Assembly (NCBI GenBank): GCA_010093515.1
Contig: MU001671.1
Span: 680,808 to 744,807, forward strand
Length of the DNA stretch: 64,000 bases
Direction of reading: 5' to 3'
Source of the DNA: Lineolata rhizophorae
Taxonomy: Eukaryota; Ascomycota; Dothideomycetes; Lineolatales; Lineolataceae
Shown here one piece after another: positions 27,673-35,455 of the stretch; position 1 is the stretch's first letter, and each line of letters opens with the position of its first letter. The notes beneath the pieces were generated by a model. The model made no database searches. It had not been told where the DNA came from and saw nothing but the letters and a program-made list of their open reading frames with translations. The position numbers and the translations under genes were made by a program.

Positions 27673-28426
27673 TTGGTTCACGGAGCGTGCGAAAGTGAGT
27701 AGTGGACATTATCGCTGTCAGATACTGGTTGGATTTCCTAATTTTGCTACTAGCAGATCACCATAGGTCTTGAAAACTTGTACGACATTTTCTAGTATAA
27801 GCAAAGATTAGGTATTCGTACCTATGATGCAGTCATAACACTACGGAGTTCTCACTGACCAACTTCCTGCCGCGAAACCCAATCCTGCGGCCGAAAGAAG
27901 TGATCCAGACTATAATTGTTGTGCAAGGCTCCACATCAGTCTTCTCGGGCCGCGTCAAGACATAGAATAGGCTGGGGAAGACGAGCTAGCTCGGCTCCTT
28001 GTGGCATTTATTTAGGTCTCTCTCATATCATCTGACCCTGCATTTCACGTAGCGATAATTTTTCAACTTTGAACATGAATTCCGTACCTATTCAAAATTT
28101 GATATCAATTGTATAGCTTGAGCAGATCGAAGTTTTGAACTACGCAGCGTGGCCTTGGGCTCTTAGCGTTTAACCACACATGGAACTTCAACGAAGCAGG
28201 CCAACAGTGCTCCTGGATGAATCCCATTACGTACTCAAAAAGACTTTCAGTGTCCCGGTGAAAAATCGGCAAACAAGTTGGAGTTCAAGTATAGAGTCTG
28301 CTATATCCTCTTGCCTAGTGTTTGTCAACCTCAACTACCGGAACTAGCCGGTAAATTGTTCATTCACAGACGGCTTAGTCCACCGCCCACATCAAAGTCT
28401 CAAGCATGCCTCAGCATACCATTGAG

Positions 28427-28482
28427 CAGGGTTGGCAACGATACTATTGATTAGCTAATCAATAGTATCGTTGCCAACCCTG
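28427..28482. mobile_element. 56-bp perfect palindrome, likely minimal hAT-type element
   Basis: The sequence is its own reverse complement over 56 bp, centred on AGCT. Its ends read CAGGGTTGGCAACG inward, close to hAT-superfamily terminal inverted repeats, which commonly begin CAGGG. It is flanked by 8-bp near-identical direct repeats, CCATTGAG at 28419-28426 and CCATAGAG at 28483-28490, which match hAT target-site length. It therefore looks like two terminal repeats joined with nothing between, a very small MITE or deletion product. Confidence 0.7.
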
Positions 28483-28939
28483 CCATAGAGTTCGGTGCAG
28501 GCTATATGTACTGTTTCAACCCCTCCACAGCATGCCTGCACTATCTACCATGTGCACATATCTCCCAACTTTCCCTGCCACCACCGCATACGCCCTCAAA
28601 GTGGCAGCCAAATTCCTTTACAAAGCACGCTGCGCCGAAATAGACTCCGCCCAAGGGTATGTCGAGACCCACCATCCCCTCCATGCACAAGAGCCCAGTG
28701 GGGAAAGAAAGAAAAGAGCAAAGAACGCCATCTGTGTACGTAACGAACCACCCAGCGAGCCAGCCAACCAAGTGCGCAACGCACTACGCATCGCCAGCTC
28801 GGAACCACACCCCGTAAGCAAGCATAGCTTGAAAGACTCGAAACCGGAGCCAGAAACTCCAATCCAGCCCAGCCCAGCCCAGTTTAATGCAATTGAATCC
28901 AGAACAAAAAGAAGCAAGACTGAGCGATACGCATGCACC

Positions 28940-29145: not shown

Positions 29146-32100
29146 TCACCCCATCCCCACGCTCCCCCAAGACCCGCTCTGCCTCTCCTTATGCTCCACC
29201 TCCCCTCTGCCCGGCGCGTCCCTTCTCCCCGGCGCCCCGCCGGACCCCGACGCCACGCTGTCCCACCGCGGCTTACGCACGACGCCGCCGCCCCAGCGCA
29301 TCTTCTTCCCATGCCCAACCCCATCCCCAGCCCCAACCGCAGCCGGGTCCTTCTCCGACCCAGCGCCACCGGCGCCTCCACCGCTCATCTCCGGCTCTAG
29401 CGGCAAGCCGGCCCGGCCGCCCCCGCCACGGCTCGGCCCCCTCGACTGCAGCCCCGGCAGCACGCTGTCGCGCCTGCCAGCGCGCCCGTCGCCGTCGCCG
29501 AGCCCGACGATCCTGACGGGGTCCACCTGGCGCCGGGCCTTGGGCACCGCCTCCAGATAGACGGCGTAGGCGGCGCCGGCGGCGAAGGCGGCGAGCACGA
29601 CGGCGTAGGCGAACAGCGGGTCCGCGCGCTCGGCGACGGCGTGCATGACGGGCGGCCAGACGGCGCCGCCGGCGATGGCGGCCGTCATGAGGGCGGCCGC
29701 GTTCTTGGTGCGGGCCCCGAGGCCGCGGAGCGCCGACGCGTACACGAGGGAGAAGATGGGGCCCTCGAAGAAGTAGAGGAGGACGATGGCGGCGGCCGGC
29801 CCCGGGGCCGACGAGGTCCCGCGCGGGCTGGCCGCCGGGAGCTTCATGCAGAGCGCCGCGAAGAGGATGCAGCCGGCGTAGCTGAGCGCGAGCAGGTGCC
29901 GCGGCTTGAGCAGGAAGATGTTGGCGAGCGCGGCTAGGAAGCGCGAGACGGCGAATGCCGTGTGCCCGATGGCTTGGTGGCTCGTCTTGTCGAGCGTCGA
30001 GCCGGCCGCCTCGAGGTACTCGGCGAAGCTGGTCGAGAGCGACTCCTGCCCGCCCACGTAGCAGAACTGCGAGAAGATGCCGAGGGCGAGGGTGAGGGCG
30101 AGGATGGAAATGGTGAGGCTTCGCCCGTTGCGCGAGAGGAAAGGGATCGCGATGGTGGCTTGGTTGGCGCCGTCGGCGCGCTGGGCCGCGTCGTCTAGCT
30201 CGGCGTCGGTGGCGTCTGGTAATGGGACGTAGTAGTAACCAACGGCGAGGATGATGGTAAAGAGAGCGATTCCGAGGTAAGTCCATTGGACGTCGACAAG
30301 CGAGGGTGCATCGGTGCGAGGACCGAATAGAACTTTCTTGGCAAGCAAAGGGGAGACTATCGTGCCGATGGCTTGCACGGCCTGCGATAGGTTTAGTCGG
30401 ATCTCCGCGTACTGAGGAGGACCGCATAAAGTCGTGAAGGGATTTGCCGAGAGTTCGAGAGTGGATAGACCTAGCCCAACGATAAAGTTGGAGATGAGAA
30501 AGGCCGAAAAAGAAGTGAGGACGGCGGAAGGCCAGAACACCAGGGTCCCCGTTGCGTATATTGAAAGACCAATGATGTAGCAGGACTTGAAGCCCCAACG
30601 AATAAGTGCCAACCTCCCAAACGTGATCGGCCCGATGAAATAGCCCGCATAATAGGCGCTGTGGATTCCGATACCCTTGCCACTAGACATGTAAGAAATT
30701 TGTTGGAATTGCTGGTTTAGTACGTCTAGTAGGCCATACGCAAATCCCCACACAAAGAACAGAACTGTGACCATGGCGATTGGGAAGACCGACTCCCGAT
30801 TGTTCATGAACACTATGCTCTTCTTCTTTTTCATGCTCACGAAGTCGAAAAATGTCGGCGCGGCTGCGTTCGTGTTTGCCGTCGCGCTCGTCATGGTGGT
30901 CATGTCCATCCTGCCAGGTGACGACCCGCTCCCGCCACTGCCTTGCGACCCGCCTAGGCCCTCTGGCGTTGTCAGGAAGTCGAGCATGTCTACCTCCTCT
31001 CCGTTTCCATTTCCGCTTCGACCCGCGGGTGATGGGGAAGTATGGGCCGGGGTCGGTCGCTGAGGCGCATTCTCCGGCTGCGGAAGCGACAGATTTCCTT
31101 GCGCCTCGACATGATCCGACGTGTTCGCCGTATTTCCAGCGGGAGATATCGACTTCTCAGTTTCCCCCACATCCCGGATAAAGTGCGGTAGGAATTTGGA
31201 AACGAGAGGTTTAAGCCCCGGAACGCACCCGCACATGATGCCAACGTTCGCCTCGATGTTGGACCACATGAACGAATACGCCGCATACCAGGAGAAATCA
31301 GACTGCTCTTTTCTCATGTTGCTTTCGTCCTGCTGCATCTGAACGTCGTTCAACCGATATAGGAACGCCTGCTGGAGGTATGCGATGCGCACTACATCCA
31401 CAATCGCGACAAAAATACCAAAACCGAAGGTGATTACAAGAATCACCTTCTGCTTCTTCGGCAATCGCATACTCGTAAGGATGGGCATGGGTAGGAACAG
31501 AATGGCCAAGTCCGTAATGATATTGACCGGGGCCGAGGAGAGGTACAAGGTCACAACATCGGTGCAATTCGCACCTCTCGGCTGGGGAGTTTTGAACGCG
31601 TCGGCAACGGGAACGCACTGAAAAATATTGAGGAAGGTAAGAGCAAGTCCGGCAGCATTGACGACGAAAAGCGTGGCCCAGCAAGCCCACTTGAAGATTT
31701 TTTGATTGGTCGAAAGCGTGAGGAAGAAAACCAGAATGGATGTCTTGGTCGCCATGAGTGAAGGGTTCTGCGCCGTTCATGTGAGTGTCCATGGAGAGCA
31801 AGCGTTGCACAAGAGTCGACGACGTACGTATAACACTGAGAAGGCATACTCCGCCTTCTTCAGTGGCGGGTCCCACACCGGCGGAACATCTCGCTCGTGC
31901 CGTCCCAGTCCCACAGACGTGCCCCAACATATGGAGAAAGACAAGCCGAAGGTGATGGCCTAGCGCAACGAGGCAAGACGTTAGTCAATTCACTCTTTTT
32001 TTTTTTTTTTGGGGGCACCTTGGACTCAACAGCGCAACCAATTCAACAACAGAGCCAAGCGCGAACAAGAGCCCGAGCGATCATGCTTGGATACACCCCG

Positions 32101-32293
32101 GCCACCAGGAAGCCGGTCCGCGACTCACCCACGCGAGAATCATGAAGTAGTCGTCCCAGGATATGCGGTGGACGATGAGGGTGCGTGAGGCCATGCGCAG
32201 CGAGACGAAGACGGTCGAGATGCAGATCATGGCCGTCGAGACGCCGAAGACGACGGGCCCGCGGTCCGGGACGCTGCCGTCGTCGCTCGACAT
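29146..32293 (-). CDS. SAT4/rhodopsin-like seven-helix domain fused to FucP-type MFS sugar transporter
   Basis: Three exons: 32293-32129, 31959-31828, 31767-29146; 972 aa. Residues 1-300 form a SAT4-type domain: VVFGVSTAMICISTVFVSLRM, WDDYFMILAW, then YNPSLMATKTSIL rebuilt across intron 2, CTDVVTLYLSSAPVNIITDLAILFLPMP, and SNIEANVGIMCGCVPGLKPL, the usual end. A polar linker of about 100 residues follows. From about residue 410 an MFS domain of the fucose permease/glucose-galactose type begins (SVFPIAMVTVLFFVWGFAYG, DVLNQQFQ, HSAYYAGYFIGP, LSTLELSANPFTTLCGPPQYAE) and runs to about 840, ending in a Gly/Arg-rich tail. The last exon is open through both domains without a stop or splice need, so the fusion is direct. 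SAT4 domains are of unclear role; FucP relatives import sugars with protons. What the fusion does is unknown. Confidence 0.88.
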
Positions 32294-34612: not shown

Positions 34613-35455
34613 TCACAACATCCCCGCCAATCCCACAACGGCCGCGACGAAGCCGCCGGCCGGGACGTACACGCCGCCCGCGGCACCGCTCGAGGACGCC
34701 GAGGCGGCCGACCCGGTGGCCGTGCTATCCGAGGACGAGTCGCCGGTCGGGGTGCCGATGGCGGAGCTGGCCGAGTTGGCCGCGGCGGAGCCCGTTGCCG
34801 CGGCCGAGGAAGCGCCGCCGGTGGTGGCGCCGGTGGTGGCGGCGGCGGCAGCGGTGGTGGTGTCGCTGGAAGGGTTTTGGCTGTGCGGCGAGGGAGGGAG
34901 ATGGGGTTAGCGACGGTGCAGAGGACACATGCGGGACGGAGGGAAAGGTGAGGGTGGTGGGCCTGGAACTTACGCCTCAGCAGCGTTGCAGTACGACGTC
35001 TTGGTCTGCTCGTCGCCGAAGGCCTGGTCCGAGTTCGGGCAGTTGTTCCAGCAGCTGTTTGAGCCACGGTTGAGTCAGCCTTCGTCCGTTCAATCTAGCA
35101 ATGATCTCCTCAAGCTCTAGAAACATTCACGCCACTGGAAAGGAGAAACGGCAAAAGGAAGGGCGTTCGCCCTCCTCAATGATGCCCTTCGGAGGCGGCA
35201 GGCGGGGGGAAGGAGGATTCAGACTCACGTCACGACCTGCTCGTAGGCATCGCAGAGGCACTGCCAGTCATTGGCATCGCAGCCATCGACCTGGATCTGC
35301 GTCGTCGCCAGGCACGAATCGACAATGTTCTGCGCCTCGCAGTCGCTAGAGCCGGACGACGAGCCGGAGGTGGGCTGAGCGGGAGTGCTAGCCGTGGTCT
35401 GGGCGGCGGCGATGCCGGCCGAGGCGAGGATGGCGGCGGTGATTTGGAAACGCAT
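34613..35455 (-). CDS. GPI-anchored Cys-rich, Ser/Thr/Ala-rich cell-surface protein
   Basis: Three exons: 35455-35229, 35054-34974, 34880-34613; 191 aa. It has a signal peptide (MRFQITAAILASAGIAAAQ) and a short Ser/Thr stretch. Eight Cys follow within about 60 residues (DCEAQNIVDSCLATTQ, GCDANDWQCLCDAYEQ, TCWNNCP, SYCNAAE). Then comes a long Ala/Ser/Thr/Gly region and a hydrophobic C-terminus (GGFVAAVVGLAGML) after a Ser/Gly omega-site region. This is the layout of small fungal GPI proteins labelled Ser/Thr-rich. It resembles CFEM proteins in having eight Cys but the spacing does not clearly fit. It would sit on the plasma membrane or in the wall. Function unknown. Confidence 0.83.

Follow-up and report, generated by a model that had tools for sequence, protein, structure and literature searches.

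A candidate fusion of a Pth11-like seven-helix domain with a FucP-type transporter in Lineolata rhizophorae

Gene anatomy and genomic surroundings

The window, a stretch of 64,000 nucleotides from contig MU001671.1 of the Lineolata rhizophorae assembly, carries a three-exon gene on its minus strand (32293-32129, 31959-31828 and 31767-29146) that encodes 972 residues. The fusion is established at the level of this gene anatomy, which is as follows (positions are those of the window).

32129-32293, minus strand: exon 1 (residues 1-55), with the start codon and, from the SAT4/Pth11-like domain, helix 1 and the beginning of helix 2; the PF20684 match begins here
31960-32128, minus strand: intron 1, 169 nt, GTGAGT..CTAG, with a CTAAC branch-like site
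31828-31959, minus strand: exon 2, residues 56-99; its splicing-in extends PF20684 to full length
31768-31827, minus strand: intron 2, 60 nt, GTACGT..GCAG, with a CTCAC branch-like site
29146-31767, minus strand: exon 3, a single open frame (873 residues and the stop codon) covering SAT4 helix 3 onward, linker, transporter and C-terminal tail
31177-31767, minus strand: exon-3 part of the SAT4/Pth11-like domain (PF20684), helices 3-7, residues 100-296
30805-31176, minus strand: linker, residues 297-420, stop-free, with the scanned AATAAA- and TATA-type motifs absent
29530-30804, minus strand: FucP-type MFS transporter, residues 421-845, 12 helices; D447 and E537 correspond to FucP Asp46 and Glu135
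29149-29529, minus strand: C-terminal tail, residues 846-972, of low complexity, modelled at low confidence and with the lowest coding score among the segments tested

The single open exon of 874 codons described in the initial annotation was confirmed at 31767-29146, the count including the stop codon; read from its first ATG, the same exon appears in the ORF list as 29146-31755 (869 aa). In the frame of exon 1, none of ATG, GTG or TTG occurs upstream of the start codon as far as the preceding stop. Both introns are bounded by GT..AG and contain branch-like sites. A run of 15 A residues (minus strand) lies near the branch-like site of intron 1. Independent support for the splice model came from the domain itself: the exon-3 frame alone matched PF20684 with 147.2 bits, starting at profile position 72, and the joined exons matched the entire profile (positions 1-237 of 237) over residues 32-290 with 201.9 bits (E = 1.5e-59). 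The two upstream exons thus complete the SAT4 part, as had been supposed. The earlier statement that the end of a SAT4 domain, a polar linker and a complete FucP-type MFS transporter share one frame was likewise borne out by the Pfam scan, the match to FucP and the structural model. The linker had been placed at 30.8-31.0 kb; its 30.8-kb end stands, and the other end was moved to 31.2 kb (31176-30805).

Of the other long frames in the window (30 are in the list), 20 were scanned against Pfam and eight matched, two of them below the family cut-off. By these matches, the neighbors are ALG11, the acetolactate synthase small subunit, Tag1, an ornithine carbamoyltransferase-like protein, Mpp10 and a glycerol-phosphate oxidase-like protein; no sugar-use cluster was seen among the window frames scanned against Pfam. 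The best solved relatives of the Mpp10 neighbor include 5oql, and we take these structures to be from Chaetomium thermophilum. Together with the PF20684 genes of the genome, this neighbor points to a filamentous ascomycete. About 660 nt beyond the stop codon of the fusion gene lies a perfect 58-bp palindrome (28426-28483) composed of two 29-nt arms with zero spacer. A 26-nt portion of the arm recurs in the genome in two inverted copies that together span 447 bp (C5:374149-374595) and as a single copy at C24:309350; the palindrome has the look of a small TIR element stripped down to its two terminal inverted repeats. On the minus strand at 35225-35455, a short ORF, with a signal-peptide-like start and spaced cysteines, looks by eye like a gene for a small secreted cysteine-rich protein.

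The organism's own genome (31 Mb in 48 contigs) contains 39 PF20684 matches, which were grouped by eye into 26 places, the fusion included. It also contains a stand-alone FucP-like paralogue on contig C24 (510 residues, three exons, 41% identity over the main aligned part), a contig on which PF20684 had zero matches. Neighboring MFS genes were sought with phmmer (ten MFS queries, E of 1e-3, frames of at least 50 residues) at 58 loci (L012-L069), representing 23 of the 25 other PF20684 places, many with only 1.5 kb of flank per side; C7:348344 and C27:390505 were left out. Matches were found only in the fusion gene itself and in the C24 gene, and the 23 other places showed none. As far as was seen, then, the SAT4-MFS pairing is unique within this genome. 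One PF20684 gene (C8:297556-297993, L054) lies in a 656-residue frame whose tail of about 400 residues is of low complexity, rich in Gln, Ser and Pro, with a recurring D(V/I)GGLL; the tail is not a transporter.

The fusion gene is without the two introns of the C24 paralogue. It also lacks an intron in helix 6 that was seen by eye in four of the five SAT4 paralogues examined. Intron loss through a cDNA of a fused mRNA was considered and is not relied on, because one SAT4 paralogue is also without the helix-6 intron.

The two membrane domains

The N-terminal half is identified as SAT4/Pth11-like by its complete PF20684 match. No CFEM domain was found in the fusion protein in the Pfam scan, and the SAT4 half had zero sequence relatives in the solved-structure library at E up to 1. 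Its helix ends were set by eye from hydropathy, the family and a low-confidence model rather than by a trained topology predictor. Of the 7+12 helices envisaged in the initial annotation, the twelve of the transporter were recovered in a mostly confident model; in the SAT4 half, the hydropathy scan marked five of seven (helices 1, 2, 4, 5 and 6), and helices 3 and 7 were positioned visually, at sites where the low-confidence part of the model also has helices. That model (AlphaFold2, with no relatives supplied for the SAT4 part) has helices at the places of 3-7.

With these helix ends, the even loops carry a net charge of -3, and the odd loops plus tail +7. Loops on the putative outer side hold 10 K/R and 13 D/E, and those on the inner side, with the tail, 9 K/R and 2 D/E. 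The net loop charges fit an outside-N/inside-C orientation of the SAT4 half, whereas K+R alone, being alike on the two sides (10 versus 9), does not discriminate. In FucP-type carriers, the N-terminus lies inside, and an N-inside MFS protein needs an inside C-terminus before it. A SAT4 C-terminus on the inside and a carrier N-terminus on the inside would thus make the halves topologically compatible via a cytosolic tether.

The C-terminal half matched PF07690 (MFS_1) with 49 bits (cut-off 33.4). It also matched three narrower models below their equivalog or subfamily cut-offs: TIGR00885 fucP (E = 6.5e-41; 140.8 bits, equivalog cut-off 280.4), TIGR01272 gluP (74.6 bits, cut-off 202.55) and the NagP model. 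Since the fucP equivalog cut-off was not reached, fucose is left unclaimed as the substrate. The only PDB sequences matched at E up to 0.1 were those of E. coli FucP (3o7q and 3o7p, E = 2.4e-31 and 4e-31). FucP Asp46 and Glu135, for which a role as the proton/substrate pair has been proposed (PMC3824880), correspond in the alignment to D447 and E537 of the fusion; in the corresponding columns of 39 bacterial relatives, D occurs in 27 and E in 37.

Exon 3 was modeled in AlphaFold2 together with the 39 bacterial relatives. In the transporter (residues 321-750 in model numbering), pLDDT was at least 85 in 33 of 43 ten-residue blocks, with dips at model residues 481-490, 511-550, 581-590 and 641-660 and at both ends. 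Twelve membrane helices were read in the model, the long helix at model residues 362-417 being counted as two. A Foldseek search of the PDB placed FucP (3o7p, 3o7q) at the top of 611 matches, with a TM-score of 0.79 by target length. By sequence and predicted fold, the transporter half is a complete FucP-type MFS protein, closest to that of E. coli.

Conservation was assessed over 81 columns, each kept in at least 80% of the 39 bacterial relatives; a 40th locus (L109) was excluded as a fragment. The fusion keeps 48 of these columns and the C24 paralogue 57. In the N-half, the two are nearly level (31 and 32 of 46), and in the C-half, the fusion keeps 17 of 35 compared to 25 in the stand-alone paralogue, or 11 versus 18 of 28 when the regions by which the bacterial loci had been retrieved are removed. 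Residue 772 of the fusion is serine, where all 39 bacterial relatives and the C24 paralogue have proline. By our own count, its neighbor F771 aligns with FucP Tyr365. This divergence of the C-half makes the substrate, and even transport, uncertain.

Third-position GC climbs from about 0.55-0.7 to about 0.9-1.0 inside the transporter of both FucP-like genes (29149-30200 in the window; locus L028 on C24). A shift at about residue 620-640 was considered as a mosaic boundary and rejected, since the stand-alone paralogue rises similarly; the comparable rise provides no evidence for chimerism at the joint.

The linker and the alternative readings

Residues 297-404 (about 108) are polar, rich in G, T, S, P and A and predicted to be disordered; they were modeled helix-free at low confidence, with pLDDT of 29-43 over model residues 191-300 (residues 290-399). 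Ahead of the first transporter helix, the segment TFFDFV..KKKKS....RES presumably resembles the native N-terminus of a fungal FucP subfamily, in which case the joint would lie at about residues 297-395. When 20,000 sequences were generated by Markov resampling, 3.9% were free of stops in a given frame over a linker of this length (372 nt, 124 codons), a figure that is not overwhelming alone; the frame of the linker also continues through the domains on either side and has the highest coding score on the minus strand. That score, referenced to codon use in six Pfam-matching ORFs of the window, was highest for the linker's own frame among the three minus-strand frames in both parts of the linker. 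One plus-strand frame, which has two stops, equals this frame across the linker as a whole and surpasses it in the second part; the coding score is therefore taken as support and not as proof. A scan for introns gave weak candidates only, four from one donor and one from another. On the minus strand from 31300 to 30700, none of five AATAAA-type motifs was found and no TATA, and there is one CCAAT, at 30783. The linker DNA has a single match in the genome, itself, and no repeats were found inside it. In-frame ATGs within the linker encode M386, M388 and M391 (ACCACCATG). On these sequence features, a single polypeptide is the best reading, and we infer a single mRNA.

Because the linker is without a stop codon, a separate SAT4 protein would have nowhere to end before the transporter, and an internal start at M386-M391 is therefore the strongest remaining rival. 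An internal promoter or start would also yield a free FucP-type transporter from the shared frame, with the long fusion being a minor or read-through product. M391 stands in a favorable ACCACCATG context, with initiation at M386-M391 the first transporter helix would be preceded by about 32-42 residues (about 55-60 in the stand-alone paralogue), and one CCAAT motif is present, at 30783. Against these points are the missing stop, the absence from the linker of the scanned poly(A)- and TATA-type motifs, the weakness of its candidate introns and its 372 nt, which would be little space for a promoter and leader in addition to a tail and 3' end; the two-product arrangement is judged unlikely. An error of assembly or sequencing that joined two neighboring genes is much harder still to credit, given that the linker is a single-match sequence, repeat-free as far as found, inside a 1.6-Mb contig, and that one frame is kept with the top minus-strand coding score in both linker parts.

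Two further alternatives accept the long protein and dispute its function. The chimera may be neutral or decaying, the product of a recent deletion between two tandem genes that confers no joint function. It is the sole such pairing found in its own genome, and the C-terminal tail (about 130 residues) has the lowest coding score of the segments tested, although its frame outscores the other five in that region. Both domains are complete, though, with unbroken frames, and the SAT4 half scored 162.1 bits in the unspliced genome scan, second only to a match on C30 (162.2 bits), and 201.9 bits when spliced. Scores this high indicate that the SAT4 half is not a degraded member of its family, and a neutral or decaying chimera seems improbable. 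Alternatively, the carrier half may no longer transport and may instead act, next to the receptor-like half, as a scaffold or sugar sensor. The lost family-conserved residues do concentrate in the C-half and include the two positions after the equivalent of FucP Tyr365. Set against this, D447 and E537 are retained, the phenylalanine at the Tyr365 position (F771) is shared with 35 of the 39 bacterial relatives and the paralogue, and the 12-helix fold was modeled, mostly with confidence; such a non-transporting transceptor is also considered an unlikely outcome. We regard the locus as probably a real gene fusion that encodes one 972-residue membrane protein of about 19 predicted helices, in which a Pth11-like module is tethered to a FucP-type symporter.

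Proposed working and relation to known systems

In the fusion protein so conceived, the N-terminal half would be a Pth11-like seven-helix module (SAT4, PF20684, fungal class XIV) with its N-terminus outside and its C-terminus inside. A flexible cytosolic stretch of about 110 residues would connect it to a proton-coupled monosaccharide symporter of the FucP type with its N-terminus inside. By the mechanism proposed for FucP, the carrier half would use protonation of D447 and E537 to import a neutral sugar; that the substrate is a sugar we infer from the family. The receptor-like half, held in a 1:1 ratio beside the carrier, may sense an outside cue, such as a related sugar or a wall or surface compound. 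It might instead control the trafficking and activity of the carrier. The coupling between the halves is putative, and a "transceptor" reading is possible. In yeast nutrient transceptors, the transporter fold itself signals. The fusion resembles these by analogy, in that one protein would both sense and carry; it would differ in having a separate seven-helix module attached.

With Pth11-like receptors (class XIV), the fusion shares the complete PF20684 domain; its net loop charges, though not K+R alone, fit the outside-N/inside-C orientation. It differs in its C-terminal 12-helix transporter and in having no CFEM match in Pfam; class XIV is listed with PF20684 and CFEM in a passage of PMC13308352. 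With FucP, the L-fucose:H+ symporter of E. coli (3o7q), it shares the predicted 12-helix fold, the best sequence and structure match and the Asp46/Glu135 pair, and it differs in falling below the fucP equivalog cut-off and in its many changed C-half family residues. Relative to both FucP and the fungal L-fucose permease-like genes, it adds an N-terminal receptor-like domain and a long tail. Fungal genes annotated as L-fucose permease are mentioned in one report as a family expanded in pathogens (PMC2330156).

Relatives were also sought beyond the genome itself. For the SAT4 part of exon 3, taken together with most of the linker, there were 41 pattern matches in genome contigs and three in viral contigs, none of which was confirmed, and the transporter part gave zero pattern matches in viral contigs. 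A profile built from the two transporters retrieved 40 loci, all bacterial. In the open-licence PMC literature, at the level of titles, the starts of abstracts and some passages, no description of a SAT4-FucP fusion was found; both families are known. Two papers name PF20684 or a rhodopsin domain-containing protein in the body text but not in title or abstract (PMC13116585, PMC11384713). SAT4-FucP fusions may occur in Sordariomycetes. If they do, the novelty of the present case drops and its biological weight grows.

Passages of a survey of 1357 fungal species present Pth11-like proteins as the most abundant receptor class, and report the PF20684 class only from Pezizomycotina (PMC12842992). 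For most classes, the filter given there keeps proteins of 6-7 helices after BLASTP with >75% coverage of query and hit, a helix criterion outside which the fusion falls, with its approximately 19 predicted helices. By that description, such a protein would be discarded, and the fusion thereby exposes a blind spot of receptor surveys that keep only 6-7-helix proteins. It is conceivable, though doubtful, that there is a stable class of fungal chimeras of a Pth11-like sensor and a FucP-type carrier, in which a cue gates the carrier or the receptor reports sugar flux. Were this so, the class would have been overlooked wherever such a filter is applied. Pth11-like proteins have been studied in host infection in three fungi, where their ligands are described as unknown (PMC13308352); a naturally occurring fusion with a sugar carrier suggests what a Pth11-like receptor might sense.
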